From Treponema sp. (GTDB lineage: Bacteria > Spirochaetota > Spirochaetia > Treponematales > Treponemataceae), in assembly GCA_016288205.1 (NCBI GenBank), contig JAEEYO010000063.1, forward strand, positions 54,898 through 118,897: 64,000 bases of DNA. Direction: 5' to 3'. Below, piece after piece: positions 5,738-29,005 of the stretch (within the stretch, counting starts at the first letter, position 1; the number at the start of each line of letters is the position of its first letter). The notes under the pieces were generated by a model. It saw only the letters and a program-made list of their open reading frames with translations, ran no database searches and had not been told where the DNA came from. The position numbers were made by a program, and so were the translations under genes.

Positions 5738-7042
5738 CTAGTCATGCAGTTTGCGTGTGTCGATGACGCGCTTTGCCTTTCCCTCTGAACGCTCGATGGT
5801 TTTCGGGGCGACAAGCGTGACCTTTGCCTTTATCTGGAGCACGGAGAGCAATGCCGCTTCCAGTGCCTTTTCCTGCTTGTGGTTTTCCGCGATGACGTCG
5901 CTGAATTTTTCAGGAGTCATTTCCACTTTGATTTCAAAGGTGTCGGTATTGTTTTCGCGTCCAACGATAATCTGATAGTTCGGCGGATAGTTGTTCTGCA
6001 GGAGGACTCCCTCAATCTGGCTCGGGAACACGTTCACTCCGCGGATGATCAGCATGTCGTCCGTGCGTCCCATCGGCTTGGACATGCGCACGAAGGTTCT
6101 TCCGCAGGGGCAGGGAGCGCGGTTGAGCACACCGATGTCCTTTGTCCTGAAGCGCATGAGGGGGAAGGCCTTTTTGGTGATTGCGGTGAAGACAAGCTCG
6201 CCCTTTTCTCCGTCGGGGAGTTTTTCGCCTGTCTCCGGATTGATCGTCTCAATGATGAAGTGGTCCTCGTTTACGTGCATTCCCTTCTGCTCGCTGCATT
6301 CAAAGGCAACTCCGGGTCCCATGACCTCAGTAAGTCCGTAGATGTCGTAGGCCTTGAGTCCGAGAAGATCCTCAATGTTGTGTCTCATCTCCTCAGTCCA
6401 TGGCTCGGCTCCGAAGATTCCAGCCTTCAGGTTCAGATAGTCGGGACCGTAACCCATGTCGTGCAGGGTCTCTCCCAGGTATGCGGCGTAGGATGGAGTA
6501 CAACAAAGGACGGTTGCCTTAAGGTCGTGCATGAACGCAATCTGTCTCTGCGTGTTTCCAGATGAAATTGGAATAACAGTGGCACCAAGTTTTGTCGCTC
6601 CGCCATGAAGTCCGAATCCGCCGGTAAAAAGACCGTATCCGTATGCGACCTGAACGGTATCGTTTTCATCGGCTCCGGCGGCTACAAGCTGTCTTGCGGT
6701 ACAGTCGTCCCAAATGTCCAAATCTTCCTTAGTGTAGCCAACCACAATCTGCTTACCTGTGGTTCCTGATGATGACTGGATGCGAACTACATCCTTCATT
6801 GGGACGGCAAAGAGTCCGTAGGGGTAGGTCTGTCTCAAGTCATCCTTGCAAGTGAAGGGAATCTTCGCTATGTCGTCAAGTCCCTTGATGTCGTCCGGGC
6901 TGACTCCAGCTTCCTTGCACCTTTCCCTGTAATAGGGTACGTTTTCGTATACATGCCGGAAATTCTCAGCCAATCGCTTTCCCTGCAGCTTCTTGAGCTC
7001 TTCTGCTCCCATGCATTCCATTTCTTTCTGGAAGTATTTCAT
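5738..7042 (-). CDS. paaK: Phenylacetate-CoA ligase
   Basis: A 434-residue adenylate-forming enzyme that activates phenylacetate or a related aromatic acid with ATP and CoA. Motifs are SSSGTTGKQ (P-loop), YGLTEVMGPGVAFEC, FRTKDIG and the hinge/C-terminal GRTDDMLIIRGVNVFPSQIE. No ring-epoxidation paa genes are near, so it probably serves indolepyruvate/arylpyruvate oxidoreductase products or an unknown arylacetate. The start MKYFQKEMECM has AGGAG 8 nt upstream; the longer track start overlaps the promoter. It is first in an operon with the ACT gene. Confidence 0.9.
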   Translation of the reverse strand: MKYFQKEMECMGAEELKKLQGKRLAENFRHVYENVPYYRERCKEAGVSPDDIKGLDDIAKIPFTCKDDLRQTYPYGLFAVPMKDVVRIQSSSGTTGKQIVVGYTKEDLDIWDDCTARQLVAAGADENDTVQVAYGYGLFTGGFGLHGGATKLGATVIPISSGNTQRQIAFMHDLKATVLCCTPSYAAYLGETLHDMGYGPDYLNLKAGIFGAEPWTEEMRHNIEDLLGLKAYDIYGLTEVMGPGVAFECSEQKGMHVNEDHFIIETINPETGEKLPDGEKGELVFTAITKKAFPLMRFRTKDIGVLNRAPCPCGRTFVRMSKPMGRTDDMLIIRGVNVFPSQIEGVLLQNNYPPNYQIIVGRENNTDTFEIKVEMTPEKFSDVIAENHKQEKALEAALLSVLQIKAKVTLVAPKTIERSEGKAKRVIDTRKLHD

Positions 7043-8667: not shown

Positions 8668-9813
8668 ATGGCAAAGAGAAAACTGACGAACATTCTTGTG
8701 ACGGGCGGATGCGGATTTATCGGATGCAATTTCATCCACTATCTCCTTGGCGAGAGCACAGCGGGAGGGGCTGCGTTCACCGACTCAGGATTCAAGGGAC
8801 GCATCGTCAACGTGGACTGCCTGACTTATGCGGGAAATGCCGATAGCCTGAAGGACATTGATGCGAAATATGGCTGCGGAGCGAAAGAGTCTGAGAGACG
8901 GTATTTCTTTGAGAAAGTTGACATCTGTGACAGGCCGCAGATAGAACGCATCTTCAAGCAGTACGACATAGACACCGTGATTCACTTTGCGGCGGAAAGT
9001 CATGTGGACCGCTCAATCCTGGGGCCCGAGACCTTCATGCGCACCAATGTGATGGGAATCTTCACCCTGCTTGACGTGGCACGCAATTACTGGAACGTGA
9101 GCCTTGAGAACCCCCGTGACGACGTTCTTTTCCACCATATCTCAACGGACGAGGTTTACGGAACTCTGGGTGAGACGGGATATTTTCTTGAGACCACACC
9201 CTACGACCCGCGATCCCCTTATTCATCAAGCAAGGCGTCGAGCGACCACATCGTGATGGCATACTACCACACTTACGGACTTCCAATCACCTTGTCCAAC
9301 TGCACGAACAACTACGGTCCCTTCCAGTTCCCGGAAAAACTTCTGCCGCTCATGATTTCAAACATCAAGGACGGAAAAAATCTTCCGGTTTACGGCGACG
9401 GAAAGAACATCCGCGACTGGATTTATGTTGAGGACCACAACCGCGGAGTGTGGCAGATTGTGAATCAGTCTCCTGCCGGGGAAAAATGGAACCTTGGTGG
9501 TGAGAACGAGTGGGAGAACATCCGTCTTCTGAGCACCGTGATTGATTTGGAGGCCGCCGAGCTTGGAAAAAATCCTGAGGACGTGAGAAAGACAATCACC
9601 TACGTGAAGGACAGACCCGGACACGACCGCCGTTATGCCATTGACTGCACGAAGGCGAAGACAAAGCTGGGATGGGAGCGCAAGATGACCTTTGAGCAGG
9701 GGCTCCTTTCCACAATCAGATGGTACCTGAGCCATGAGGAATGGATTGAGCACATAAAAAGCGGCTCCTACAAGGAATGGATTCAGAAAAACTACGGCGA
9801 CCAGGGACGGTGA
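8668..9813 (+). CDS. rfbB: dTDP-glucose 4,6-dehydratase
   Basis: A 381-residue short-chain dehydrogenase-type dehydratase producing dTDP-4-keto-6-deoxyglucose. It shows the NAD-binding GGCGFIG, HFAAESHVDRS, the STDEVYG motif and the catalytic YSSSK near residue 184. It is slightly longer than usual owing to an insert after TGGCGFIGCNFIHYLL. ATG 8668 (GGAG upstream) starts 1 nt after the rfbC stop, indicating coupling. The final reductase rfbD is not in this window, so rhamnose completion depends on a distant gene or the keto sugar is used otherwise. Confidence 0.93.
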   Translation: MAKRKLTNILVTGGCGFIGCNFIHYLLGESTAGGAAFTDSGFKGRIVNVDCLTYAGNADSLKDIDAKYGCGAKESERRYFFEKVDICDRPQIERIFKQYDIDTVIHFAAESHVDRSILGPETFMRTNVMGIFTLLDVARNYWNVSLENPRDDVLFHHISTDEVYGTLGETGYFLETTPYDPRSPYSSSKASSDHIVMAYYHTYGLPITLSNCTNNYGPFQFPEKLLPLMISNIKDGKNLPVYGDGKNIRDWIYVEDHNRGVWQIVNQSPAGEKWNLGGENEWENIRLLSTVIDLEAAELGKNPEDVRKTITYVKDRPGHDRRYAIDCTKAKTKLGWERKMTFEQGLLSTIRWYLSHEEWIEHIKSGSYKEWIQKNYGDQGR

Positions 9814-9822
9814 GGGAGGCGC

Positions 9823-10338
9823 TTATTTTTTCTCCGGGCTTATGTCGTCGTATGCGAGGTCGAATTTCATGGTGTTGCTGCAAATGTCAAGTTTTACGGT
9901 GACTCTCTGCCGTTTGCGGTTCACCTTGATTATGTTGCCGGAAAGTCCCGTAAGAGGCCCGTCCGTAATCACTATGCGCATGTCCTCGTTGAAATAGGCC
10001 TTGGAGAATCCCTGCACCTCACCGAATTTTTTCAGCTTTGCAAGGTATTCGAGGTCCTCGCCCTTCAAAGGGTGAATTTCCTTGTTGGACGGAAGAAAAT
10101 GATAGAAGTTTCGGTTGAGCTTTGCCTCGCTTAGGACGGAGGGGCTCATCTTTTGGAGGGAGATGAACACATAACCCGGAAAAAGGGCCTGCTCATATTC
10201 AACTTTTTTGGAAGTACGCATCTTCTTTTTAAAAAACATGACCTGAGCAGAGTCATCAAATTTCCTCAGTGATTTCTCAAAATCAGTTTTAAACGCCTCT
10301 TCAGCCCCTGCCTTCACCATGATGCAGTAATATTCCAT
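9823..10338 (-). CDS. NusG-family antiterminator paralogue (LoaP/RfaH-like)
   Basis: A 171-residue protein with an N-terminal NGN domain (YYCIMVKAGAEEAF, ALFPGYVFISL) and a C-terminal KOW domain (VITDGPLTGLSGNIIKVNRKRQRVTVKLDI). Specialised NusG paralogues (RfaH, LoaP, UpxY) ride on RNA polymerase and suppress termination in one long operon. Being a stand-alone gene, divergent from the polysaccharide island promoter, it is more likely such a specialised factor than housekeeping NusG, which normally sits with secE/rplK. GAGG lies 4 nt before the ATG. Target specificity is inferred from position only. Confidence 0.82.
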   Translation of the reverse strand: MEYYCIMVKAGAEEAFKTDFEKSLRKFDDSAQVMFFKKKMRTSKKVEYEQALFPGYVFISLQKMSPSVLSEAKLNRNFYHFLPSNKEIHPLKGEDLEYLAKLKKFGEVQGFSKAYFNEDMRIVITDGPLTGLSGNIIKVNRKRQRVTVKLDICSNTMKFDLAYDDISPEKK

Positions 10339-10366
10339 AAAACCTCAACTTGATGAGATTTTACCT

Positions 10367-10395
10367 CTTATAAACTTTTCTTTCAAGTAGTCCAA
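10367..10395 (-). promoter_or_regulatory. Promoter of the NusG-like gene
   Basis: TTGGAC, 17-bp spacer, TATAAG on the minus strand, followed by a leader with GAGG. It lies 27 bp from the -35 of the divergent island promoter. Confidence 0.6.
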
Positions 10396-10422
10396 AGTAT
10401 ACATCTATGGGGGAAAATACAC

Positions 10423-10451
10423 TTGAAAACAAGCTCCTTTTCGGTTATAAT
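10423..10451 (+). promoter_or_regulatory. Strong sigma70-like promoter of the polysaccharide island
   Basis: TTGAAA, 17-bp spacer, consensus TATAAT. Transcription is predicted near 10458, about 160 nt upstream of wzm, producing a long untranslated leader. Confidence 0.75.
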
Positions 10452-10457
10452 CTTATT

Positions 10458-10617
10458 TCAGAACATTCAGTTGTAACTGGCTGTGATGCACGATAGGTGC
10501 GCGGCGAAGTGCCTCGATCATTAGTCCCTTACTGCACGGGCGAAGCGCAGTTTTACAGAACGGTTTTTTTCAAGGCCCAGTATGGAAGGACGGAGGTGTC
10601 TTTAAAATTTTGGCTGA
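10458..10617 (+). promoter_or_regulatory. Structured 5' leader, candidate antitermination target
   Basis: The leader has no ORF of note but several inverted repeats. AGGTGC..GTGCCT (10495-10514) competes with GCAC..GTGC (10488-10500). CTGCAC-GGGCGAA-GCGCAG (10532-10550) is followed by TTTT, which resembles a weak intrinsic terminator. A T7 run follows at 10564-10570. Both main hairpins carry a GGCGAAG/GGGCGAAG loop. Together with the adjacent NusG paralogue this looks like a leader where antitermination is decided; the factor-RNA pairing is inference. Confidence 0.5.
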
Positions 10618-11526
10618 ATGGCTCAATCTTCAAGACTGATTAGGAATATGATGGATAAAAATAGAATTGCCAGGCAAGATGACAACACTCAGTGGACTAA
10701 AGTAATCACAGCGAAAAAGCGGCTCATGGACTTGCATCTCCGTGATGTGTGGGATTACCGCTATCTCATAAAGATGTTCATCAAGCGCGATTTCGTCGTC
10801 AAATACAAGCAGACCGTGCTGGGACCTATATGGTATTTGGTTCAGCCCCTGGTCTCTTCAATCATGCACATGTTTGTCTTTGGAAAGATGGCCAATCTTG
10901 GTACTGACGGCGTTCCCTACATACTTTTCTATTTTGCGGGAACCATGCTCTGGACATATTTTACGAACTGCCTGAACAGCTGCTCGGGAACATTTTCCGC
11001 GAACCAGAATATTTTCGGCAAGGTTTATTTCCCAAGGCTCACCTCTCCCATAGCGAGCTGCGGCTTCCATATCATAACCCTTGCGATTCAGTTCATGCTG
11101 CTTGCGGCTATCTTTCTGTACACCGTTCTTGTGCAAAAAATTGCCGTCCATATTACGCTTCTTGCCCTTACGTTTCCGCTTATTGTCCTTTGGATAGGGC
11201 TTCTCGGCGGAAGTCTGGGGCTCATAATCAGCTCGCTCACGACCAAATACCGTGACCTGAACATCCTTTTGGGTTTCGGAATCCAGCTCGCCATGTATGC
11301 GACCCCGGTGGTTTATCCCCTTTCGGAGATTCCGGAAAAGTTCAGCTGGCTTGCGTATGCAAATCCGATGTGCGCTCCCATAGAGTTTTTCAGGATGGCG
11401 TTTTACGGGGCGGGCCATCTGGAGCCGTCAATGCTTTTTACAAGCCTGGGCATTACCGCTGCCCTGACCTTCTTCGGGCTCGTGTTGTTCTCAAGGAACG
11501 AGCGCAACTTCGTGGACGTGATTTAG
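10618..11526 (+). CDS. wzm: ABC-2 type polysaccharide export permease
   Basis: A 302-residue membrane protein of the Wzm/TagG family with about six hydrophobic segments. Family features are YLIKMFIKRDFVVKYKQTVLGPIWYLVQPL at the amphipathic N-terminal region and the loop PVVYPLSEIP. It forms the transmembrane channel for lipid-linked O-antigen-type glycan, with Wzt as ATPase. The start is uncertain: ATG 10618 lacks a spaced SD (GGAGGTG is 20 nt away), while ATG 10651 has AGGA 5 nt upstream. The partner wzt is separated from it by a Schlafen-type gene and a pseudogene. Confidence 0.88.
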   Translation: MAQSSRLIRNMMDKNRIARQDDNTQWTKVITAKKRLMDLHLRDVWDYRYLIKMFIKRDFVVKYKQTVLGPIWYLVQPLVSSIMHMFVFGKMANLGTDGVPYILFYFAGTMLWTYFTNCLNSCSGTFSANQNIFGKVYFPRLTSPIASCGFHIITLAIQFMLLAAIFLYTVLVQKIAVHITLLALTFPLIVLWIGLLGGSLGLIISSLTTKYRDLNILLGFGIQLAMYATPVVYPLSEIPEKFSWLAYANPMCAPIEFFRMAFYGAGHLEPSMLFTSLGITAALTFFGLVLFSRNERNFVDVI

Positions 11527-11537
11527 GCGGGACTTTG

Positions 11538-12692
11538 ATGACGGAATCCGAGCTTCTGAAAATCATTGCGTGCGGTGAGACCAGCCGCGTGCAGTTCAAG
11601 GGCTGCCTGTCCAACAAAGATAGCATAGCCGACGAGATGATAGCGTTCGCGAACTCCAAGGGCGGCATGATTCTGTTCGGTGTGGAGGATAAGACCGGTT
11701 CTGTAATCGGGCTTGATTATGCCTCATTGCAGGAGACCGGCAACGCTTTGTCCACGATTGCGAATGATTTGGTGAAGCCTCAGATTTTCATAACTACGGA
11801 GGCGGTCAGTGCGGGTGAAAAGACTGTGCTTGTCGTTTATGTGGACGAGGGAACCGCAAAGCCATACAAGGACAAGAACGGTACTATATGGGTAAAGCAA
11901 GGAAGCGATAAGAGAAAACTGACGGAGAACAGCGAGCAGATACGGCTTTTTCAGCAGAACGGATTGCTTTTTGCCGACGAGATGATTGTGCCGAATACTT
12001 CCGTCGAGGACATTGATGAGGCGAAGATCCGGGCGTACCTTGAGAAAATAGGGGACTCGGAGAATGACCTTCCGCCGGAGACTCTCTACAGGAATTTGAA
12101 CATAGTAAATGACGGGCGGCTGACTCTGGGGGGACTGCTCTTTTTTGCAAGGAAGCCGGAGAGGTACCGTCCCACATTCTGCATAAAGGCGGTGAGTTTT
12201 TTCGGAAACGATATTGCCGGGGTGGATTACAGGGACAGCGAGGACATTTTCGGAACCATTCCCCAGCAGTTTGAGGGGGGAATGAGCTTTTTGACGAGGA
12301 ACCTGCATCATGTGCAGGCCGGCCAGAATTTCAACTCGACGGGAATTCTTGAGGTGTCAAAAATTGCACTTGAGGAGCTGCTGCAGAACGCCTTGACCCA
12401 CAGGGACTACACCAAAAACGCCTCGATAAACCTGCTGATTTTTGATGACCGGATAGAGATTGTGAGTCCCGGCTCCCTTCCGAACAGCCTTACCGTGGAG
12501 AACATAAAGTACGGGAATGCGGTTGTCCGCAACAGCCTGATTGTCTCGTTTAGCTCCAAGGTTATGAAATACCGCGGGCTCGGATCCGGAATCCGCCGTG
12601 CATTGAAGGAAGAGCCTTGCTTGAGGCTGATAGATGACAAGGAAGCCGAGCAGTTCAGGGTGATAATACCCAGAAAAGAATTTGTGGGGTAA
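11538..12692 (+). CDS. Schlafen AlbA_2 / HATPase_c_4 domain protein
   Basis: A 384-residue protein. The N-terminal AlbA_2 (Schlafen-like, nucleic-acid-binding) domain shows TSRVQFKGCLSNKDSIADEMIAFANSKGGMILFGVED. The C-terminal part carries an ATPase-like module (ALEELLQNALTHRDYTKNASINLLIFDDRIEIVSPGSLP). Such proteins are annotated as putative transcriptional regulators or helicase-related and are common mobile or defence cargo. The real start is ATG 11538, 11 nt after wzm; the track N-terminus overlaps wzm in another frame. It has no obvious link to glycan export. Confidence 0.85.
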   Translation: MTESELLKIIACGETSRVQFKGCLSNKDSIADEMIAFANSKGGMILFGVEDKTGSVIGLDYASLQETGNALSTIANDLVKPQIFITTEAVSAGEKTVLVVYVDEGTAKPYKDKNGTIWVKQGSDKRKLTENSEQIRLFQQNGLLFADEMIVPNTSVEDIDEAKIRAYLEKIGDSENDLPPETLYRNLNIVNDGRLTLGGLLFFARKPERYRPTFCIKAVSFFGNDIAGVDYRDSEDIFGTIPQQFEGGMSFLTRNLHHVQAGQNFNSTGILEVSKIALEELLQNALTHRDYTKNASINLLIFDDRIEIVSPGSLPNSLTVENIKYGNAVVRNSLIVSFSSKVMKYRGLGSGIRRALKEEPCLRLIDDKEAEQFRVIIPRKEFVG

Positions 12693-12697
12693 AGTAA

Positions 12698-12984
12698 GAA
12701 TCGAAAATTGAATTAAACGGGATAACTGTACTCACAGGTGAAAATGGCTGTGGCAAAACGACATTATCCAAGCTTTTATATGGCTTTGTAAAGACGTCAA
12801 CAAATTTTGATTCTGCACTTTAGATTCGAATGTCCGCTGTCATGATTCTGCTTACTTTGTTTTCAATGAAAAAAACTTTGAGCAAATTCGAAATCGTTGG
12901 ACAAGGAGGAATTTGAATTCCCCAAAAAATGTGGCTATTTGGCAATCTGATTTTGAGAAGGCGTTTTTGAAAACAGCTATTTAA
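12698..12984 (+). pseudogene. Decayed AAA/ABC-type ATPase remnant
   Basis: Between the Schlafen gene and wzt one frame reads ELNGITVLTGENGCGKTTLSKLLYGFVKTS, an intact Walker A with typical flanks. It ends at TAG near 12823. A second frame then reads NVRCHDSAYFVFNEKNFEQIRNRWTRRNLNS and ends at 12984. The rest of the ATPase (Walker B, signature) is missing. This is a frameshifted fragment of a larger SMC/AAA-like ATPase gene, perhaps once linked to the Schlafen protein. It accounts for the whole 326-nt gap. Confidence 0.6.
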
Positions 12985-13018
12985 GTTTTCTTGAGGATAT
13001 AGGATAATAATTAAGGTT

Positions 13019-14293
13019 ATGGTAAACGACATCGCAATTAAAGTAGAAAACCTCTCAAAGTACTACAAGCTCGGCGTAATAAACAACGGGACGCTCTTCC
13101 GTGACATACAGAGCTGGTGGGCTAGAGTCCGTGGCAAGGAAGATCCCCACGCAAAAATCGGTTCAAACTATGACTCCACGGCTGAGGGGTTCTGGGCACT
13201 CAAGGACCTGAACTTTGAGATTAAAAAGGGTGACAGGGTTGGAATCATCGGCCATAACGGAGCCGGAAAGTCAACGCTACTAAAGCTTTTGAGCCAGATA
13301 ACGATTCCGACGGAAGGAAGCATAAAGATCAACGGAAAAATCGCGAGCTTGCTTGAGGTTGGAACCGGCTTCCACCCTGAGATGACGGGGCGCGAGAACA
13401 TCTACATGAACGGCGCCATCCTTGGAATGAAGCACGATGAGATTGACAAGAAGGTAAACGACATAATTGAGTTCTCTGAAATAGGCGAACATATCGACAC
13501 TCCTGTAAAAAGGTACTCCAGCGGAATGTACGTGCGGTTGGCTTTTGCTGTTGCGGCGCATTTGGACAGCGACATTTTGATTGCCGATGAAGTGCTTGCT
13601 GTTGGAGACGCTGCGTTCCAGAAGAAAGCACTTGGGAAGATGAATGAGCTTTCTGCAGGCGAGGGACGGACGGTTTTGTTTGTGAGTCATAATATGGCGC
13701 AAGTGAAGAATTTGTGCAACAAGGGGATTGTGCTGGAGAAGGGAAGGGTAGTAAAGAGTGGGGAGATTGAGGAGTGTATACAGTCGTATTTGTCAGATTC
13801 AAGAAATAGTGATTTAACCTCATATAGGGTTTTTGATAGTGATGATAGCAAAGCATTCCAACTATTGTCTGTTTATGTCTTAGATTTGTATGAAAATAAT
13901 GTTTCAAGTTTTGAAAGTCAAACAGAGATAACAATAAGGTTGAATTGTGTTTCTCGTAAGCCTCTTCCAGGTCTGTATGGATGGTTCGGTGTTCAAAATG
14001 AATCTCACGATTGGGTCATAGTTTTCGATTCGACAGAGCAAGAATCATCAAATGAGGCAGATTTACCCAAAGGAAAGTATACATGGGATATAACTATTCC
14101 TAAAGGAGTGCTAAAGCCTGGGAAATATTTTTTTACAGCTAATTTTACTAGTAAATTTAATGAATCTGGTTTTAATGTAGATTCACCTTTGGAATGCTGT
14201 ACTTTCACAGTTGTTGATACCCTTACAGAAAGAGGAGCGAAGAGGGGATCTATTACAAGTGTTGTTCCATCAATGAAACTCGTTGAGGGTTAA
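13019..14293 (+). CDS. wzt: Polysaccharide ABC exporter ATPase with C-terminal carbohydrate-binding domain
   Basis: A 424-residue protein. Residues 1-255 are the ATPase: Walker A GHNGAGKST (78-86), signature YSSGMYVRLAF, Walker B DILIADEVLAVGD and the H-loop VSHN. The remaining 170 residues are a beta-rich domain matching the Wzt C-terminal module, which recognises the glycan terminus before export. Base use changes sharply near 13790, at the domain border: moderate GC upstream, AT-rich downstream. ATG 13019 has AAGG close upstream. It follows the ATPase pseudogene and precedes the nonulosonate genes by 6 nt. Confidence 0.9.
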   Translation: MVNDIAIKVENLSKYYKLGVINNGTLFRDIQSWWARVRGKEDPHAKIGSNYDSTAEGFWALKDLNFEIKKGDRVGIIGHNGAGKSTLLKLLSQITIPTEGSIKINGKIASLLEVGTGFHPEMTGRENIYMNGAILGMKHDEIDKKVNDIIEFSEIGEHIDTPVKRYSSGMYVRLAFAVAAHLDSDILIADEVLAVGDAAFQKKALGKMNELSAGEGRTVLFVSHNMAQVKNLCNKGIVLEKGRVVKSGEIEECIQSYLSDSRNSDLTSYRVFDSDDSKAFQLLSVYVLDLYENNVSSFESQTEITIRLNCVSRKPLPGLYGWFGVQNESHDWVIVFDSTEQESSNEADLPKGKYTWDITIPKGVLKPGKYFFTANFTSKFNESGFNVDSPLECCTFTVVDTLTERGAKRGSITSVVPSMKLVEG

Positions 14294-14299
14294 ATCTAT

Positions 14300-15508
14300 A
14301 TGATTAATATAGAACAATTTATTTCGGAATATGTCACAGAGCGTAACTCAAGTCTTTTTGCAAAAGACATTCAGAACAATTCTGCAGCATTAACAAAAGC
14401 AATCAAAGATAAGTCTATGCTTGTAATTGGCGGTGCTGGAAGTATAGGCAGTTCATTTATAAAAGCCTGCTTGCAGTTTCATCCAAAAGCTCTTGTAGTA
14501 GTTGATGTAAACGAAAACGGTCTGGCAGAACTTACCCGAGACTTGCGTAGTACAAAGGGAATGTATGTACCAGACGACTATGTACCATATCCGATAAACT
14601 ACGCTCAGCCTGTTTTTGAAAAGATGTTTCGAGCTCGTGGCGGTTTTGATGTTGTTGCAAACTTTTCTGCGCATAAACATGTTCGCAGTGAAAAAGACAT
14701 TTATTCTGTAGAAGCCCTTTTGCAGAATAATGTTTTGAATGCAAAAAAACTTTTGGATTTACTTTCAGAGTTTCCGCCAGAAGAATATTTCTGTGTTTCG
14801 ACAGACAAGGCTGCAAATCCTGTAAACATCATGGGTGCAAGTAAAAGGATTATGGAAGATGTAATCTTTGCATATTCCGATAAGTTTCCTGTAAAGACTG
14901 CCCGCTTTGCAAATGTAGCTTTTTCTAACGGTTCGCTGCCAGCTGGATTTATAGACCGTATTTCAAAATTGCAGCCAATTTCCGCTCCCAGTGATGTAAA
15001 GCGTTACTTTGTAAGTCCGCAGGAAAGCGGTCAGATTTGTATGCTTGCCTGTATGCTTGGAAAGAACCGTGAGATTTACTTTCCAAAACTTGAAGAAAAA
15101 AAGATGAAAACTTTTTCTTCTATTGCAACAGACTTCCTTCACGAAAATGGATATGAAGTTTTGGAATGCAGTTCTGACCAGGAAGCCATTGATAAGGCTG
15201 AAGACTTGAAGAAAGGTTCTAAGAAATATCCGGTCCATTTTTCAGGTTCAGATACAACTGGGGAAAAAGCATATGAAGAATTCTTTACCGATACAGAACA
15301 GACTGATATGAACCAGTTTGAGTCATTGGGGGTCGTAACCAATAGAACTGCCCGTTCAGTAAGTGAGATTCAGGATTTGTTTACAAAACTCGAAAATGCT
15401 TTTGCAAAGCCAAATACAACTAAGGCAGAAGTAGTAACAATTTTGAAGGATTTCTTACCTAACTTTGAACATGAAGAAAAAGGTAAATCGCTTGATAGCA
15501 AAATGTAG
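14300..15508 (+). CDS. legB: NDP-N-acetylglucosamine 4,6-dehydratase (LegB-like)
   Basis: A 402-residue extended SDR of the Polysacc_synt_2 / CapD group with NAD-binding VIGGAGSIGSS near residue 40, NFSAHKHVRSEKD and CVSTDKAANPVNIMGASKR. It would turn GDP- or UDP-GlcNAc into the 4-keto-6-deoxy sugar, the first committed step of legionaminic acid. The C-terminal 100 residues are less conserved. The following LegC, LegG, LegI, PtmE-like and LegF genes support the assignment. GAGGG upstream of the ATG overlaps the wzt end. Confidence 0.82.
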   Translation: MINIEQFISEYVTERNSSLFAKDIQNNSAALTKAIKDKSMLVIGGAGSIGSSFIKACLQFHPKALVVVDVNENGLAELTRDLRSTKGMYVPDDYVPYPINYAQPVFEKMFRARGGFDVVANFSAHKHVRSEKDIYSVEALLQNNVLNAKKLLDLLSEFPPEEYFCVSTDKAANPVNIMGASKRIMEDVIFAYSDKFPVKTARFANVAFSNGSLPAGFIDRISKLQPISAPSDVKRYFVSPQESGQICMLACMLGKNREIYFPKLEEKKMKTFSSIATDFLHENGYEVLECSSDQEAIDKAEDLKKGSKKYPVHFSGSDTTGEKAYEEFFTDTEQTDMNQFESLGVVTNRTARSVSEIQDLFTKLENAFAKPNTTKAEVVTILKDFLPNFEHEEKGKSLDSKM

Positions 15509-15519
15509 GAAGTGAAGTT

Positions 15520-16156
15520 ATGAGTACAAAAGCTGATTACTGGAAACTAAGAGAAAGTTTTTACAAATGTAGAGATTTTGAAATAAACAATTTATGGCAA
15601 AAATCTATATTATTAACAGCTTTTTTTGTACTTGATTTTACTATCTATGCAAATGTTGTTACAAAATTATTTGAAAATATAGAAGATGAGAATAGTATTT
15701 CATGAGATTTGTTCTGCTTTGTGTATAATTGGAATTGTTCTATCTTTAATATGGATAATGATGGCAAAAGGCTCGAAAGCTTGGTATGAATTATATGAAA
15801 ATGCTATATGTTCTATTGAGCGAGAAAAAACTATTGATATACCAGAAAGTTATAAAATGGGAAATATTTATGGCGAACGCCCTATAGATAATAACATTTT
15901 TACAAATAATGCAGGTTGTTATTCACCTTCAAAATTAAACATAATAATAGGTCGCTTATTTCTTATCATTTGGAATACAATTTATATAATTCATTTAGTA
16001 TTTGAAATTATATGGATTAAGAATTCAAAAATAAATGGAGAATGTCCTTGTTTTCATTTAGTTATATGTTTATTAATATTCATTATTGTTTTAATTATTT
16101 ACATAACTTCTTTTATTAATGCTTGGGCAAAAAGTTCTTTTCTTGAAAAACAATAA
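15520..16156 (+). pseudogene. RipA-type membrane protein, single frameshift
   Basis: Two track ORFs (61 and 156 aa) are consecutive parts of one protein. The first ends ENIEDENSIS-stop; the second, in the +1 frame, resumes at FHEICSALCIIGIVLSL. Removing one T of the TTT at 15700-15702 restores ENSIHEICSAL. The whole has a hydrophobic pair at each end around a soluble centre (WYELYENAICSIE, GCYSPSKLNIIIG), a pattern I recall from RipA-family octameric membrane proteins. Its role in a glycan cluster is unclear. A sequencing error is possible. Confidence 0.6.
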
Positions 16157-16173
16157 ACTGATTGGAGCTATAT

Positions 16174-17325
16174 ATGTCAAATCAAGATGCAATTCAATTT
16201 ATAAAATCACTTTATCCAGAATATGGCGATCATATTCCTCTTCATGCCCCAGTTTTTTTAGGAAATGAAAAAAAATATCTGAATGATTGTATAGATACAA
16301 CATTCGTTTCTAGTGTTGGGCAGTATGTAGACCGCATGGAGCAGATGGTTGCTGAATACACAGGGGCTGCCCGCGCGGTTGTTTGTGTAAATGGTACAAA
16401 TGCTTTGTATATGAGTCTTTTGCTTTCGGGAGTAGAGCAGGGCGATGAAGTTATAACTCAGCCCCTGACTTTTATTGCAACTGCAAACGCAATCAGTTAT
16501 TTGAACGCTTTTCCTGTATTCTGTGATGTTGATGAGGATACAATGGGGCTTTCCCCTGTTGCAGTTCGCAAGTGGCTTGAGGAAAATGCTGAAGTAAAGG
16601 GTGAAAAGTGTGTAAATAAAAATACTGGTCGAAAAATCAGCGCAGTTGCTCCAATGCATACATTTGGTCATCCAGTACATCTTGACGAATTTGTAAAGTT
16701 GTGTGACGAATGGAAATTGGCACTTGTAGAAGATGCCGCGGAAAGTATAGGAAGTTTTTATAAAGGAAAACATACTGGTCTTTTTGGAAAAGTTGCAGCT
16801 CTCAGTTTTAACGGCAACAAGACTGTTACAACAGGCGGCGGCGGTATGCTTCTTTTTACCGATAGCGAGCTTGGTGAAAAGGCAAAGCATCTTACAACTC
16901 AGGCAAAAATTCCTCATCGCTGGGAATTCAAGCATGATGCAATCGGCTATAACTACAGAATGCCGAACATAAATGCAGCCCTCGGTTGTGCTCAGATGGA
17001 AAATATCCAAAAGATTCTTGAAAATAAACGCAAAACTGCAATGTCTTATAAAGACTTCTTTGCAGGAAGCGATATTCACTTCTTTGATGAACCAAAAGAC
17101 TGTAAATCAAACTTCTGGCTTAATGCGGTTATGCTTTCTAATAAGAAAGAGCAGATTAAATTCCTTGAAGAAACAAATGATAATGGTGTTCAGACTCGTC
17201 CTATTTGGGAACTGATGAACAGACTGGAAATGTTCAAGAATTGCCAAAAAGGTGATTTGTCTACAGCAGAAATGTTTGCTGATAGAGTTGTGAATATTCC
17301 TAGCGGATATGGGGCAAGCAGATAA
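16174..17325 (+). CDS. legC: LegC-family PLP aminotransferase
   Basis: A 383-residue DegT/DnrJ/EryC1-type aminotransferase that puts the 4-amino group on the 4-keto-6-deoxy sugar. Features are CVNGTNALYMSLLLSG, EDAAESIGSFYKGKHTG and the PLP lysine in FNGNKTVTTGGGG near residue 214. ATG 16174 has GGAG 6 nt upstream and replaces the track TTG. Its stop abuts the ATG of the next gene (taaATG), so they are coupled. Confidence 0.9.
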   Translation: MSNQDAIQFIKSLYPEYGDHIPLHAPVFLGNEKKYLNDCIDTTFVSSVGQYVDRMEQMVAEYTGAARAVVCVNGTNALYMSLLLSGVEQGDEVITQPLTFIATANAISYLNAFPVFCDVDEDTMGLSPVAVRKWLEENAEVKGEKCVNKNTGRKISAVAPMHTFGHPVHLDEFVKLCDEWKLALVEDAAESIGSFYKGKHTGLFGKVAALSFNGNKTVTTGGGGMLLFTDSELGEKAKHLTTQAKIPHRWEFKHDAIGYNYRMPNINAALGCAQMENIQKILENKRKTAMSYKDFFAGSDIHFFDEPKDCKSNFWLNAVMLSNKKEQIKFLEETNDNGVQTRPIWELMNRLEMFKNCQKGDLSTAEMFADRVVNIPSGYGASR

Positions 17326-18447
17326 ATGAAAAAAATCTGTGTTGTAACCGCGGCACGTTCTGAATATGGGCTCTTAAAATGGCTCATGCATGATATTGAT
17401 GCTGATGCTAATTTCCAGCTTCAATTGATTGTAACTGGTGGGCATTTATTAAAAGAACAAGGGCATACTATTGATGCCATAATCGCAGATGGATTTAAGA
17501 TAGATGCTACTGTAGATGCTAATCTTGATACTTCATCTACAGAAAAAATTGCTTCATCAATGGGAAGAATGGCGGAGAAATTTGCTCCTGTCTTTTTAGA
17601 ATTACAACCTGATTTGCTTTTTGTTTTGGGTGATCGTTATGAATTACTTCCTATTTGTAATACAGCATTTGTTATGAGAATCCCTATTGCTCATCTTTCA
17701 GGCGGCGATGTAACAGAAGGGGCTATTGATGATGGGGTTCGAAATACTGTTACAATGCTTGCAGATTACCATTTCCCAGGACCGATAGATTCTGCAAAAA
17801 ATATTGAAAGAATGCGTGGAAATAACAAAAATATCTGGCCTGTTGGGGAGCCAGGCCTTGATGCTTTTAATCGCATTGAACTCATGAGTCGAAATCAACT
17901 TGCAGATAATCTTGAACTTGATGTAAATAAAAAATGGTGTCTTATGACTTATCATTCAGAGACGCGAGAAACTCTTGAATATAATCTTTCGGCTGTTCAG
18001 AACTGTTTTGATGCTTTATCAATACATAAAGATTTGCAGGTTGTAATGACCTATGCAAATGCTGATTTTGGCGGAAAAAAGATTAATGAACAATTAGAGA
18101 AAGTGGCTGAGTCTAATCCTTCTCAATTTAAGGTAGTACCTTCTCTTGGTCAATTAAGATATCTTAGCTTTATGAAACAGGTTTCCCTTGTTATTGGAAA
18201 TTCAAGCAGTGGAATTGTTGAAGCACCTTTTCTTGGAGTATCTGTAGTAAATATTGGTGAACGACAGAAAGGTCGCTACCAGTGTAAAAATATTATCCAA
18301 TGTAAGAATGATTCAGTTGCGATTACGAGTGCAGTAAATTCTTGTTTTGAAAAAAAACTTGATAATAGTGACTGCAATTTCTGGGGTAATGGACACGCTT
18401 CAGAAAGTATTCTTACGATTCTTAAGGAAAATATTTTCAAGAACTAG
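17326..18447 (+). CDS. legG: NDP-sugar hydrolysing 2-epimerase (NeuC/LegG)
   Basis: A 373-residue GT-B-like enzyme that removes the nucleotide and inverts C2, giving the 2,4-diacetamido-2,4,6-trideoxymannose precursor. Signatures are VTAARSEYGLLKWLM, VLGDRYELLP, HLSGGDVTEGAIDD, GEPGLDAFNR and GNSSSGIVEAP. It begins directly after the legC stop. In a legionaminate cluster this is LegG rather than sialic-acid NeuC; sequence alone does not separate them. Confidence 0.88.
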   Translation: MKKICVVTAARSEYGLLKWLMHDIDADANFQLQLIVTGGHLLKEQGHTIDAIIADGFKIDATVDANLDTSSTEKIASSMGRMAEKFAPVFLELQPDLLFVLGDRYELLPICNTAFVMRIPIAHLSGGDVTEGAIDDGVRNTVTMLADYHFPGPIDSAKNIERMRGNNKNIWPVGEPGLDAFNRIELMSRNQLADNLELDVNKKWCLMTYHSETRETLEYNLSAVQNCFDALSIHKDLQVVMTYANADFGGKKINEQLEKVAESNPSQFKVVPSLGQLRYLSFMKQVSLVIGNSSSGIVEAPFLGVSVVNIGERQKGRYQCKNIIQCKNDSVAITSAVNSCFEKKLDNSDCNFWGNGHASESILTILKENIFKN

Positions 18448-18450
18448 CTT

Positions 18451-19494
18451 ATGGAAACTGTAATTGGTGGTGAATTCAAGATTCCTCTGCTAGACATAGA
18501 AACAAAAGAATTTGATAATGGCATTTTTTTTGCTTCTGGAAGGGGGGCATTTGCTGCAATATTAAAAAGAATTATTGCTAATAATAATACTATACATAAG
18601 CTGGGGGGGGTAATGCTGCCTGACTACTTATGTTCGTCAATAACGCAAGTTTGTATTGATGAGAAAATATCATATCAATTTTATCATATAAAAGATGATT
18701 TACTCCCTGATGAAGAACAATTGATGCCAAAGTTAGACGATAATTCTGTTGTACTTTTGATTTCATACTTTGGTATGATTGATGTTGAGAATGTTGCAAA
18801 TAGAATAAAAAAACAGAATCCAAATGTAGTTATAATTTTGGACGATGTGCAGAATTATTATTCACAATATTTTGAAAGCACTTTTTGGGATTATCGTTTT
18901 AATTCATATAGAAAATGGTTTGCTGTCCCTGATGGGGCGGAGGTGTTTTGTAAGTCTGGTTCTATTGATTTACCACATGCGAAAAATACATTTGCACAGT
19001 ACAAGTTTTCTGGCAATGTGCTTAAGAATTTTTCGGAATGGGTAGAAGATAGTTTGTGCCTTGATTTAATTGGAAAAGGTGAAGAAATTCTGGATACAGA
19101 TTACAATTGTGAATGTTCAAAAATCAGTAGGCATTTGATACCAGAGATTTCGTTTGAGGAAATAAAATCTAAAAGAATGGAAAATGCGTCTTTCTTACAT
19201 GATGAATTAAAAAAACTTGGAATAAAGCATACTTATAATCCAGAAAGTGTGCCACTTTTTATTCCTGTTTTTCTAGAAAATAGATCAGAAGTCAGAAAAA
19301 AAATGTTTTCAAATAACATTTTTACACCAATACACTGGCCGTATGAATCAGATAAATTAAATGGAACCTTAAAAAATCAGCTCTATAAAACAGAGCTTTC
19401 GCTTATATGTGACCAGAGATATTCTCTGAATGATATGAAAAAACAGATAGAAGTTTTAAAAAATGTTTATAGAAATTACAGACAAATGGAATGA
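18451..19494 (+). CDS. DegT-like PLP aminotransferase with poly-G tract
   Basis: A 347-residue fold-type-I PLP enzyme: FFASGRGAFAAILKR, MLPDYLCSSI, ILDDVQNYYS (cofactor Asp) and YRKWFAVPDGAEV with the probable Schiff-base lysine at 155. It is diverged from LegC. A run of eight G at 18603-18610 codes for L-G-G-V and is in frame, so slippage would switch the gene off after about 53 residues. It overlaps the next gene by 32 nt. It probably acts on the same sugar pathway or its amino-acyl donor; the substrate is unknown. Confidence 0.75.
   Translation: METVIGGEFKIPLLDIETKEFDNGIFFASGRGAFAAILKRIIANNNTIHKLGGVMLPDYLCSSITQVCIDEKISYQFYHIKDDLLPDEEQLMPKLDDNSVVLLISYFGMIDVENVANRIKKQNPNVVIILDDVQNYYSQYFESTFWDYRFNSYRKWFAVPDGAEVFCKSGSIDLPHAKNTFAQYKFSGNVLKNFSEWVEDSLCLDLIGKGEEILDTDYNCECSKISRHLIPEISFEEIKSKRMENASFLHDELKKLGIKHTYNPESVPLFIPVFLENRSEVRKKMFSNNIFTPIHWPYESDKLNGTLKNQLYKTELSLICDQRYSLNDMKKQIEVLKNVYRNYRQME
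18603..18610 (+). repeat. Poly-G(8) tract, ON phase
   Basis: Eight consecutive G inside the aminotransferase in an AT-rich gene where such runs are unexpected by composition. The current length keeps the frame open. Confidence 0.7.
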
Positions 19495-20485
19495 TAAACT
19501 TTTGCATTTTTCAAAAACTCAGAAAGATATATATTTTTCTGAATCTTATGTAAAACTTGCAACAGGAAAAAATGAGACACCGCTTTGTATCGTTTGTACT
19601 GAAGACGAAAACATAATGCTTTTACCTTTTTTGAGGAGTGAATTTAAGGATTTCTTTGATTTTGAAACTCCATATGGATATGGTGGTCCTATTTCAAATA
19701 GTACTGATGAAAAATGGAATGAAAAGGCCGTAAAAGAAATAGTTAAATATTTTAATTCACAAAATTATCTTGCTGGTTTTTTGCGCTTTCATCCGTTATT
19801 AAATAATTCTGAATTTTGTAGAAATACATTTACAGTAATAGATGACAGAAAAACTATTGCTATTGATACAGCCGTATCAGAAGAAGAAATGTGGATGAAT
19901 CAAATTTCTTCAAAGAATCGCAATATGATTCGTAAAGCTGAAAAGAACGGCCTTACTTTTGAAAGAGATAATGAATTCGACCATATAGAAGAGTTTAAGA
20001 AACTATATAATTCTACGATGAGTCGTTTAGATGCAGATGATTTTTATTTCTTTGATGATGAGTATTATAAGAAATTTATTGAAATCTTTAAAGGTAAAGG
20101 TTTTTTAGGCTGTATTAAAAAAGATAATGAAATTATAAGTGCTGCCTTATTTATGTATGAAAACTGTTGGGGACATTATCATCTTGCAGGGAGCAATAGA
20201 GATTATTCATCCCTCGGAGCGAATAATTTACTTTTGTGGAAAGTTGCTTGTGAAATGCATAAAGAAGGTGTAAAGGAATTTCATCTTGGTGGCGGAACAA
20301 ATGGAGATGAAGAAAATAGCTTGTTTAAATTTAAGCGTTCTTTTAGTCCAAATGAAAAACAATTTTCTATAGGAAAGATTATATTTAATAATGAAGCCTA
20401 TGAGGAAATCTGTTCGGAATGGGCTAAAAAATATCCAGAAAAGGCAGAAAAATATAAACATCATTTACTTAAATATAGGTATTAA
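19463..20485 (+). CDS. FemAB/GNAT-like acyltransferase
   Basis: A 340-residue protein resembling the Acetyltransf_6/FemAB group. Its second half has the GNAT-type core (SSKNRNMIRKAEKNGLTFERD, GFLGCIKKDNEIISAALFMYENCWGHYHLAGSNRDYSSLGANNLLLWKVACEMHKEGVKEFHLGG). These enzymes N-acylate amino sugars or add amino acids from tRNA. The cluster lacks a recognisable LegH N-acetyltransferase, so this protein with the upstream aminotransferase may supply the 4-N-acyl group. It overlaps the upstream gene by 32 nt. Confidence 0.75.
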   Translation: MFIEITDKWNDKLLHFSKTQKDIYFSESYVKLATGKNETPLCIVCTEDENIMLLPFLRSEFKDFFDFETPYGYGGPISNSTDEKWNEKAVKEIVKYFNSQNYLAGFLRFHPLLNNSEFCRNTFTVIDDRKTIAIDTAVSEEEMWMNQISSKNRNMIRKAEKNGLTFERDNEFDHIEEFKKLYNSTMSRLDADDFYFFDDEYYKKFIEIFKGKGFLGCIKKDNEIISAALFMYENCWGHYHLAGSNRDYSSLGANNLLLWKVACEMHKEGVKEFHLGGGTNGDEENSLFKFKRSFSPNEKQFSIGKIIFNNEAYEEICSEWAKKYPEKAEKYKHHLLKYRY

Positions 20486-20517
20486 AAATTATATCTTTTA
20501 ATAAAACTAAATGTTAA

Positions 20518-20546
20518 TTGACAACATATATTTGTTTTATTAATAT
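20518..20546 (+). promoter_or_regulatory. Internal promoter before the ATPase pair
   Basis: Consensus TTGACA, 17-bp spacer, TAATAT. The -10 ends 11 nt before ATG 20558, giving a leader of only about 5 nt; AGGA at 20548-20551 may lie upstream of the transcript start. It allows expression independent of the island promoter. Confidence 0.55.
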
Positions 20547-20557
20547 TAGGATTATAC

Positions 20558-21694
20558 ATGAAAGAATATTTATTAATTGAAAATTTTGGTCCAATTAGAG
20601 AAGTTGAATTGGAAGATATAAAGCCTCTATCTGTGTTTATTGGTGAATCAGGTAGTGGAAAAAGTACTATCCTAAAAGTACTTAGTTTATTTCGTTGGAT
20701 TTATAAGAGAGTAAATTTAAAATCCTACTTGCAGCAGGCAAACATTTCAAAAACTGGTATTAGTTTTAAAATAAAAACACTATTAGGCATTTCTGGGATT
20801 CTTGAATATTTGCATGATGATTCTGTTATCATATATCGAAGAGATAAATATGTAATTGAAATGAAAAATAAATCTGTAAACACTCGATTTACAATAGCTC
20901 CTGAAGATTTATGTCTGGATAAAATCTGCTATATAAGTGATAAGAGAGCAATGATTGCAGATTTTATAGATAATAAAATGGAACGAAAAGTTGCAAATTA
21001 TTATTTACAGGATACAATTGACAATTTTATCCAGGCATATAAAGAATTAAAACAATTTTCACTTGATTATTTAGGAGTCGAATTTAAACTTGATAAACAA
21101 GGAACCTCACCAGAAAAACTAAAAATACGGGGGTTAAATTCTGACTATTCTATTGAAATGAAGAATGCGTCTTCTGGAATTCAAACGGTTACTCCATTAT
21201 CAATGATTGTTGAGTATTATGCAACAAAATACAACGCTGTTGAGTCCATGAATTCCGCTCTATTTAGATATATGACAGATATGGATATGTTGAAAAATTT
21301 TAATGCTGCAAAAAATGTCGGGGAGATTAAAAAACGCTCTGTTCATATTATGGTGGAAGAACCTGAATTAAGCTTATATCCAGAAAGTCAAAAATCATTG
21401 ATAGATTATCTGGTTAAATCATGCTTTCATGATGTTCATGATTATAATATGACATTAATGATTGCAACACACAGTCCTTATATAGTTAACTATCTGAATT
21501 TACTTGTAGGTCGTGCTGAAAAGAAAATTGACACCCCTTATAAGATGAATTTTTCTGACATAGATGTTTATGAAATATCTGATGGATATGCGACTTCACT
21601 AAAATTAGATGTTGATAAAGAAATTGTTGATACTCGTTTATTATCAGAACCTATTTCAGAAATTTATGAAGAGTATAATGCTTTCGGGTTATAG
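20558..21694 (+). CDS. AAA_15/AAA_21-type ATPase
   Basis: A 378-residue ATPase related to ABC/SMC heads. It has Walker A GESGSGKST (about 28-36), the signature-like NASSGIQTVTPLS, Walker B HIMVEEPELSLYP near residue 265 and the His switch IATHSPYIVNYL. There is no TOPRIM domain, so it is not an OLD nuclease. ATPases of this group are the sensor half of several two-gene defence systems. It lies inside the nonulosonate cluster with its own promoter and is followed 4 nt later by an unknown partner. No sugar function is evident. Confidence 0.8.
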   Translation: MKEYLLIENFGPIREVELEDIKPLSVFIGESGSGKSTILKVLSLFRWIYKRVNLKSYLQQANISKTGISFKIKTLLGISGILEYLHDDSVIIYRRDKYVIEMKNKSVNTRFTIAPEDLCLDKICYISDKRAMIADFIDNKMERKVANYYLQDTIDNFIQAYKELKQFSLDYLGVEFKLDKQGTSPEKLKIRGLNSDYSIEMKNASSGIQTVTPLSMIVEYYATKYNAVESMNSALFRYMTDMDMLKNFNAAKNVGEIKKRSVHIMVEEPELSLYPESQKSLIDYLVKSCFHDVHDYNMTLMIATHSPYIVNYLNLLVGRAEKKIDTPYKMNFSDIDVYEISDGYATSLKLDVDKEIVDTRLLSEPISEIYEEYNAFGL

Positions 21695-21698
21695 CAAT

Positions 21699-22349
21699 AT
21701 GAAAGATCTACTAAAATCTGAAATAGTTAAATATATAAATATACATCGCTCAGAAATTCTTGAGGAATGGAATAAGAAAACTGAAATTCAGACTGAAACA
21801 ATTTCGGATAGAATTTTTGACATTGTAGACTTACGAAGTAAACAAGGTTCTATAAAATGTTCACAAGGGACAGGTGAAGCAACTTATTTTAATGCAAGTA
21901 ATCTTTCGCTATGTTTTATAAGGTATGAAGATTTTATAAATCAGTTTAGAACTTATAATGATAGAGGTCAAATAGAAAAAGACTGGACAAAGGGGTGGAG
22001 CAGACCTGATTATATTGCCTATGATTCTGGTGCTGAAAAACAATATTTCATAATACATGAATTATCAAGTGGTGATATTTCTAATAAACATACTGATGGA
22101 CGAAAACAACTATTAAATACAGTTTTGTTATTATGTTCTCAAAATGAGATTAATGATAAGTTACAAAATGATTTTAAAGAAAGGGTTTGTTTTTTATCGG
22201 CAAAAGGTTGTGTAAAGGCGACTCCAAATAGTAATGCTGATAGCTTTATGGAAATTTATAATCATCTACCAGATCCTATTCCAATTCATAATAAGGCAGT
22301 TGAAAAAAGAAATTTTAAAGAATTTGAAACAAATGCAATAAAACTATAA
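21699..22349 (+). CDS. Unknown protein paired with the ATPase, possible effector
   Basis: A 216-residue soluble protein that I do not recognise. The central block RPDYIAYDSGAEKQYFIIHELSSGDISNKHTDGRKQLLNTVLLLC has an acidic residue, then an E-x-S strand and a basic helix, loosely like a PD-(D/E)XK nuclease, but the usual K is absent. It starts 4 nt after the ATPase stop; ATG 21678 with GAAGAG upstream is an alternative start that overlaps it. Tight spacing suggests a functional pair. Confidence 0.65.
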   Translation: MKDLLKSEIVKYINIHRSEILEEWNKKTEIQTETISDRIFDIVDLRSKQGSIKCSQGTGEATYFNASNLSLCFIRYEDFINQFRTYNDRGQIEKDWTKGWSRPDYIAYDSGAEKQYFIIHELSSGDISNKHTDGRKQLLNTVLLLCSQNEINDKLQNDFKERVCFLSAKGCVKATPNSNADSFMEIYNHLPDPIPIHNKAVEKRNFKEFETNAIKL

Positions 22350-22370
22350 TTGAATTTGATGGAATAGAAT

Positions 22371-23369
22371 ATGTCACATACTTTAATAATTGCAGAAGCT
22401 GGAGTAAATCACAATGGAAAGCTAAATTTAGCATTGAAACTTTGTGATGCAGCAAAAGAAGCTGGCGCGGATGTTGTAAAATTCCAGACTTGGAAAACAG
22501 AGAAAATAATTACACATACAGTTGCCCAGGCTGAATATCAAACTGAGAATACTGGTAAGACTGAAAGTCAGTTTGATATGCTAAAACGTCTTGAGCTTTC
22601 TTATGACGATTTTAGAGTAATCAAAGAACATTGTGACAAAATTGGAATCCAATTTGCATCTACAGCAGATGAAGAAGAAAGTCTTGATTTTTTAATTTCA
22701 CTTGGTATTCCTTTCATAAAAATTGGTTCTGGAGAAATAACTAATATCCCATATTTAAGAATTATGGGTAGCAAAAAGCTTCCTGTTATTATTAGTTCAG
22801 GAATGTCTACACTTTCAGAAGTTGATGTGGCGCTTACGGAACTTAGAAAATCTGGAGCAACTGATATTACGTTACTCCATTGTACTACAAACTATCCATG
22901 TCCTATGAAAGATGTAAATCTAAATGCAATGCTTACTTTGAAATATGCCTTCAAAATACCTATTGGATATTCAGATCACACAGAAGGAATAGAAGTACCT
23001 GTTGCAGCAGTTGCTATGGGAGCAAAAGTAATAGAAAAACATTTTACTTTAGATAGAAAAATGGAAGGGCCTGATCATCTTGCAAGTACAGGGCCTGAAG
23101 AATTCAAAAAAATGGTTGATTCAATACGAAATATTGAAAAAGCACTTGGAACAGGTGAAAAACTTCCAACAAAAAGTGAAATTGATATTTCAAAGGTAGT
23201 CTTAAAAAGATGTGTTGCATCTAAGCAAATAAAGAATGGCGAAATATTCAATGAAAAGAATCTCGCTGTGAAGCGAAATGATAAAGGGCTTCCTTCAAAA
23301 TATTGGGATTTACTTATTGGAAGAAAAGCTACAAAAGATTATGAAATGGATGAGGCTGTGGAATTATGA
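22371..23369 (+). CDS. legI: Nonulosonate synthase (NeuB/LegI)
   Basis: A 332-residue TIM-barrel enzyme condensing the 6-deoxy-mannose precursor with phosphoenolpyruvate. Motifs are IAEAGVNHNG, VVKFQTWKTE, KIGSGEITN, LLHCTTNYPCP and GYSDHTEG with metal His residues. A C-terminal SAF (antifreeze-like) domain begins near residue 265 (VVLKRCVASKQIKNGEIFN). It shares ATGA with the next gene. Confidence 0.93.
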   Translation: MSHTLIIAEAGVNHNGKLNLALKLCDAAKEAGADVVKFQTWKTEKIITHTVAQAEYQTENTGKTESQFDMLKRLELSYDDFRVIKEHCDKIGIQFASTADEEESLDFLISLGIPFIKIGSGEITNIPYLRIMGSKKLPVIISSGMSTLSEVDVALTELRKSGATDITLLHCTTNYPCPMKDVNLNAMLTLKYAFKIPIGYSDHTEGIEVPVAAVAMGAKVIEKHFTLDRKMEGPDHLASTGPEEFKKMVDSIRNIEKALGTGEKLPTKSEIDISKVVLKRCVASKQIKNGEIFNEKNLAVKRNDKGLPSKYWDLLIGRKATKDYEMDEAVEL

Positions 23370-25108: not shown

Positions 25109-25127
25109 TTAAAAATCGAGTATAATT

Positions 25128-26414: not shown

Positions 26415-26422
26415 AAATTTAG

Positions 26423-26963: not shown

Positions 26964-26981
26964 TCTTTTATGGGAGAAATC

Positions 26982-28942: not shown

Positions 28943-28969
28943 TCGTTTTGTTAGATATAAAATGCCTAG

Positions 28970-28999: not shown

Positions 29000-29005
29000 A
29001 CGAGT

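Follow-up and report, generated by a model that had tools for sequence, protein, structure and literature searches.

The loaP-Like Gene and Its Polysaccharide Island

The 64,000-nucleotide stretch of Treponema DNA analyzed here (the window) contains, at 9823-10338(-), an open reading frame that the first-pass annotation had assigned to the NusG family. Its 171-aa product has NGN and KOW domains, which bears out that assignment. The gene is convergent with rmlB, from which it is separated by 9 bp (9813-9823), and is preceded by a candidate promoter identified by its consensus match (TTGAAA-17-TAAAAT, 10 of 12 positions; 10358-10386(-)). Among NCBIfam families, the protein scored best, and by a wide margin, with antiterm_LoaP (103.6 bits, below the curated cutoff of 125 bits for NF033641), which all 33 of its relatives also match. 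Scores for housekeeping NusG (TIGR00922; 56.5 bits versus a cutoff of 135.7), UpxY (35.7 versus 100), and RfaH (33.5 versus 144.5) fell below the respective cutoffs. We found one other NusG-domain protein in the genome, a stronger, housekeeping-type match encoded on another contig. The genome itself is Treponema-like, all relatives recovered being Treponema MAGs.

An AlphaFold model of the loaP-like protein (pLDDT 91) aligned best, over its full length, with the NusG-RNA complex 8f5g in the PDB (TM 0.78), while NusG and RfaH structures matched less well; from its title and from ref 55 of PMC12691694, we infer that 8f5g is a LoaP complex. The C-terminal domain is beta in the model, unlike that of free RfaH. 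The gene also adjoins a long polysaccharide operon, a feature expected of LoaP. Judged from its sequence, it belongs to the LoaP branch of NusG paralogues.

Pointing away from this gene is a near-consensus promoter (TTGAAA-17-TATAAT) at 10423-10451(+), which matches the consensus at 11 of 12 positions and is the best plus-strand match within 10400-30000. Transcription is expected to start at about 10458, leaving some 160 nt of leader before the wzm start codon (ATG) at 10618; both the promoter and the leader length agree with the first-pass annotation. The first gene behind the leader, wzm (10618-11526(+)), encodes an ABC-2 polysaccharide export permease (PF01061), and wzt and further co-directional glycan genes follow at 13019-33442(+), the likely reach of the operon as judged from co-directional ORFs and Pfam matches. 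Between wzm and wzt stands a Schlafen AlbA_2/HATPase gene (11370-12692); such an insertion is unusual for the two genes of an export transporter. GC content in the island drops from about 0.5 to about 0.3. An initial argument that the island is poor in strong internal promoters was not borne out: promoter matches were as frequent as expected by chance (86 versus 77.3 +/- 8.8), and terminators were not enriched (10 versus 9.7 +/- 3.2).

A Covarying Hairpin at the Start of the Leader

Folding and comparison of 10458-10617 with the corresponding leaders of relatives revealed a hairpin that is conserved with compensatory changes and that follows loaP. The conserved element (model R2) spans 10467-10522(+) and was defined by covariation in 8 and then 22 sequences. 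It consists of P1a (10476-10478/10508-10510), added with the 22-sequence alignment; P2 (10480-10484/10501-10505); a 3-nt bulge, GAU (10485-10487), between P2 and P3; P3 (10488-10491/10497-10500); and the pentaloop GAUAG (10492-10496), which closes P3, all on the plus strand. Both P2 and P3 are supported by covariation. In the eight aligned seed leaders, which were picked near loaP, every cell was paired (72/72, 100%), and seven of nine pairs had changed on both sides. With 22 sequences, 93.9% of cells were paired (shuffles, 76.2%; slid controls, 46% at the highest). Double changes were carried by 57 cells versus 16.7 in shuffles, and compensatory change was present in 9 of 12 pairs. Across 52 leaders, the loop is mostly GNU(A/U)G (GNUWG) and the bulge mostly GAN. 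The pair at the base of the bulge (10484 with 10501(+)) is U.G in 35 leaders and C.A in the other 17, with no exception, which is the swap expected for two isosteric wobble pairs.

The first-pass annotation had described the leader as hairpin-rich. The leader as a whole is not unusually stable (z = 0.26; 117 of 200 shuffles fold equally well), but the conserved hairpin at 10478-10508 is when taken on its own (z = -2.34), and the hairpins had been misdrawn. The GGCGAAG-like loop proposed to be common to two hairpins is not: its first copy falls at 10503-10509, within the 3' side of P2 and the adjoining flank, and is not conserved (GCAGTCAAG in relative L003), and the second copy alone sits in a loop, that of hairpin P4. 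An outer helix, P1b, extending P1 did no better than shuffled partners and was rejected.

A covariance model built from the aligned seed leaders (R1, used to find further copies; R2 denotes the model of the element given above) matched the window at 6.5e-17, the sole strong copy in this genome. A promoter-like sequence, defined as a match at 9 or more of 12 positions within 75 nt upstream, precedes 49 of 52 leaders, compared with 14.5% of random stretches. It is located 7-15 nt upstream in nearly all copies, and its -10 box usually ends 9-15 nt ahead of the conserved element. This near-fixed distance indicates that the element marks the start of a transcript and that the hairpin is the first structure to leave RNA polymerase. 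Behind the leader, the genes vary: wzm in the window, a GDP-mannose dehydratase-like gene in L003 and L136, a cupin-type sugar gene in L128, and a flippase-like gene in L005 (functions read from sequence). The nearest relatives of the protein have a homologous leader even when the next gene differs, as in L003 versus the window.

No Rfam 15 family matched the window at its gathering score or the leader element of eight relatives. TD-1 RNA (RF03155) was considered as the identity of the element and rejected: its only match, in L046, is to a distinct element roughly 200 nt beyond the leader. That match (L046 1737-1857), which precedes a small gene, is strong although sub-threshold (52 bits; gathering score 64.5).

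Boxes and Lesser Helices Downstream of the Hairpin

We are less certain of the part of the leader that follows the hairpin and carries two UACGGAA boxes. It begins with P4 (10531-10551(+)), a hairpin with a GGGCGAA loop followed by UUUU, whose stem recurs at this position in most relatives with changing sequence. P4 together with its U4 tract is the "GC hairpin plus TTTT" previously likened to a terminator. Our terminator scan does not call it, and we rejected it as a real terminator: its stem is recurrent, but its folding energy shows no excess over shuffles and only four U residues follow it in the window. It may act as a weak terminator or as a pause site.

Next come box 1, UACAGAACGG (10554-10563(+); consensus UACGGAA), in which UAC-GAA is invariant in 17 leaders; P5 (10562-10577(+)), a hairpin enclosing a run of seven U residues, with 14 pair types at four column pairs in relatives; and box 2, the purine-rich UAUGGAAGGACGGAGGUGU (10581-10599(+); consensus UACGGAAGG), in which UA-GAAGG is nearly invariant in the same number of leaders. 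In the subgroup to which the window belongs, the part downstream of the hairpin retains P4, the covarying P5, and the two boxes, UACGGAA(GG), which are nearly invariant. Part of box 2 may pair with 10511-10515 as helix P7, for which there is modest support (p = 0.0025 in a test of own against other duplexes). A long-range helix between the Y-box and the purine box (P6) found no support in a swap test and was rejected. With P7 modest, and with P6 and the outer extension of P1 unsupported, we take only P1a-P2-P3 and P5 as supported structure.

Box 2 bears on one alternative function of the leader, control of translation or mRNA stability, in which this Shine-Dalgarno-like purine stretch would be masked or exposed by P7. 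The box does resemble GGAAGG..GGAGGUG and may pair with an upstream strand. However, about 20 nt or more separate the box from wzm, and it is just as well conserved in L003, whose first gene has a ribosome site of its own, and in L128 and L131, whose first genes begin more than 200 nt behind the hairpin. The strongest covariation, too, is in the 5' hairpin. We consider such control distinctly improbable.

The Leader RNA Is Coupled to loaP

We examined the distribution of the RNA, as detected by model R1, in 245 genomes of the family. The RNA was present in 28 of 129 genomes with loaP versus 2 of 116 without it (p = 4e-7); R1 detected no copy in the remaining 101 loaP-positive genomes. Where a genome has a single copy, the RNA usually lies within 6 kb of loaP (28/32), and this linkage persists when the seeds are removed (20 of 24 genomes). 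The orientation is fixed: 21 of the 28 linked RNAs are downstream of loaP on the same strand, 7 are divergent and none convergent, so that the RNA always points away from loaP. Copies recovered only by covariance model also adjoin loaP, including two outside the genus (G036 and G014; model R2), and in G141 each of two loaP genes has its own RNA copy nearby.

Searches of order and phylum samples with R2 found no copies outside the family, and the surroundings of plasmid-borne LoaP-like or NusG genes from other phyla (L196-L198) gave no match. In these searches the conserved leader element turned up only in Treponemataceae, and it has no counterpart among the Rfam families. Within the family, a loaP branch that is 46-48% identical (L022-L025, L030) has no detectable leader RNA near the gene; in one of its members, L023, the loaP-like gene adjoins a gene that reads like alaS. 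In L032 (G090), the loaP-like gene contains an in-frame TAA and may be a pseudogene; a divergent variant of the leader lies beside it.

The RNA and the protein have also diverged in parallel. Across 26 genomes, hairpin distance correlated with LoaP distance (Mantel r = 0.67, p = 2e-4; 0.69 when partialled on RpoB) and not significantly with RpoB distance (r = 0.11, p = 0.21), although physical linkage and joint transfer could yield part of the Mantel correlation. The coupling of the leader RNA with the LoaP-like protein is well supported.

These data weigh on two further explanations. The first, that ordinary intergenic hairpins happen to stand beside an unrelated NusG paralogue, would fit the average folding energy of the whole leader; covariation and linkage already refute it, parallel divergence and promoter position speak against it as well, and we give it almost no credence. 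The second holds that the leader RNA acts in cis, riboswitch-like or EAR-like, on the polymerase itself, and lies near loaP because both ride on the same mobile island. In its favor, the RNA occurs in two genomes (G148 and G160) where we could find no second NusG-domain protein, the boxes in the downstream part of the leader are invariant, and linkage with shared transfer would also produce a Mantel signal. Against this, G148 and G160 are only 85-90% complete, co-occurrence with loaP is strong and orientation fixed, RNA distance tracks LoaP and not the species marker, and the RNA stays with loaP while downstream genes are exchanged. All seven genomes with multiple copies, described below, also carry a LoaP-like gene. 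We regard an RNA acting without the protein as unlikely, and favor a leader that serves as the partner of LoaP.

In One Clade, Extra Copies Precede Defense-Type Genes and Integron Integrases

Seven genomes (G118, G194, G196, G253, G266, G270, and G273) each have one LoaP-like gene together with mostly two to six copies of the promoter-plus-leader unit; G196 has one copy at the threshold used for the count and two in the R1 search. Among the products of the genes behind these copies are N6/type I DNA methyltransferases (L106, L118, L122), Schlafen AlbA_2 proteins, a PDC-S01 ATPase, and a nuclease-type protein with DUF1016; the leader precedes defense-type genes at L103, L104, L106, L107, L113, L118, and L122. 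In four of the genomes (G118, G194, G270, and G273), the leader is directly upstream of a true integron integrase (L105 on G118:C26, L116 in G194, L205, and L206), and in G118 genes of the same orientation come next, along with attC-like sites (L105 3541-3624 and 4953-5034). These sites run in that direction as well, and their bottom strand forms strong folds (z about -4.4). The integrases of G086 and G174 have no leader, so integrase gene and leader do not form a fixed unit.

Copies precede integron integrases in some relatives, and several contigs end soon after a copy. Both observations would fit an element that works as DNA rather than RNA, either as an ops-like pause or as a hairpin of the recombination or attC type. 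However, the promoter found at a near-fixed distance upstream in 49 of 52 cases shows that the element starts a transcript, the U.G/C.A swap is a signature of RNA wobble, and the attC-like sites of the same integron look different. In G118, moreover, those sites are on other contigs than most of the extra copies, and we rejected an attC nature for the copies. A DNA site is in our judgment highly improbable.

The shared leader suggests that LoaP acts on the extra copies of this clade. We put forward tentatively, at somewhat less than even odds, that a single LoaP-type protein uses a new RNA tag to control a regulon in trans, spanning glycan islands, restriction-modification and other defense-type operons, and an integron, with read-through of accessory DNA including cassette arrays.

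Comparison with Known Antitermination Systems

The nearest counterpart is LoaP of Bacillus velezensis with the leader hairpin of the dfn and mln operons (PMC12691694, refs 53-55), also a NusG paralogue of this branch beside a long biosynthetic operon. There, antitermination requires the leader hairpin, and LoaP counteracts NusA at intrinsic terminators; LoaP is described as the only NusG-like protein in bacteria for which binding to a specific RNA is known (PMC12691694). The treponemal system shares a short RNA hairpin in the operon's 5' leader, conserved among target leaders, and a protein with NGN and KOW domains whose closest solved structure is 8f5g. The Bacillus hairpin is described as having a UNCG tetraloop, whereas the treponemal one combines a GNUWG pentaloop with a 3-nt bulge, and the window leader contains no UNCG hairpin. 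The treponemal leader further differs in its two UACGGAA boxes and P5, and in preceding defense genes and integrons in one clade. Since the protein scores below the curated LoaP cutoff and the RNA lacks a UNCG tetraloop, the pair falls outside LoaP in the strict sense. By contrast, a plasmid with an annotated loaP gene by a PKS-type cluster (L198; CP079755.1) has a candidate UUCG hairpin in its leader (5801-5832) that folds no better than shuffles; the record is labelled Klebsiella grimontii, and the organism label may merit checking.

Other systems are more distant. RfaH with ops likewise pairs a NusG paralogue with long surface-glycan operons, but RfaH recognizes non-template DNA, and its C-terminal domain is helical and switches fold; the treponemal C-terminal domain is predicted to be beta, and the conserved element is an RNA with covariation. 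UpxY of Bacteroides is a NusG paralogue at capsule loci but belongs to a different phylum, and the window protein scores well below its family cutoff. To our knowledge, the EAR RNA has been described without a NusG paralogue as partner. EAR resembles the treponemal RNA in being a leader RNA through which a polysaccharide operon, Bacillus eps, undergoes processive antitermination (cited in PMC12691694, ref 79), but neither the window nor the leaders match any Rfam family. TD-1 is a cis-regulatory Rfam family that also matches a treponemal locus, although its only match, in L046, is a separate element.

A Proposed Model for LoaP-Dependent Read-Through in Treponemes

We estimate a probability of roughly three in four that this locus encodes a treponemal LoaP-type NusG paralogue for which the structured 5' RNA of the island transcript is the cis partner, recruiting it for processive antitermination. 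The leader RNA is probably a tag that tells the LoaP-like protein which long operons to read through. The observations behind this reading are the conservation and covariation of the RNA, promoter position, linkage, parallel divergence, and predicted protein fold; RNA binding, recruitment, and processive antitermination are proposed by analogy to B. velezensis LoaP (PMC12691694). The P1a-P2-P3 hairpin, with its bulged stem and GNUWG pentaloop, would emerge as polymerase leaves the promoter at 10423-10451. The LoaP-like protein would bind this hairpin and load onto polymerase during elongation, perhaps while the enzyme pauses in the part formed by P4, the boxes, and P5. The protein would then travel with polymerase, suppressing termination across the ~23 kb AT-rich glycan island. 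As the island's terminators are not enriched, the barrier may be Rho-dependent termination or low processivity and not strong intrinsic terminators.

The initial proposal of a LoaP-like NusG paralogue acting on a structured glycan-operon leader is upheld in part: a leader hairpin is conserved, covaries, and follows loaP, while the specific hairpins and the terminator had been misdrawn and the promoter argument is no better than chance. Points that count against our reading are the absence of terminator enrichment, the missed LoaP cutoff, the lack of a UNCG tetraloop, the loaP-positive genomes without the RNA (101/129), and G148 and G160.

Within the sources that we searched, the RNA targeted by LoaP-type proteins does not appear to have been described for Spirochaetota. 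With a covariance model of the leader RNA, the question of which operons LoaP controls becomes searchable, and the RNA lends itself to mutational tests at the compensatory P2 and P3 pairs, the U.G/C.A wobble, and the bulge. Our findings also suggest that antitermination tags have spread to defense genes and integrons. If the trans regulon is real, processive antitermination would carry polymerase through the accessory DNA of these treponemes, cassette arrays included.
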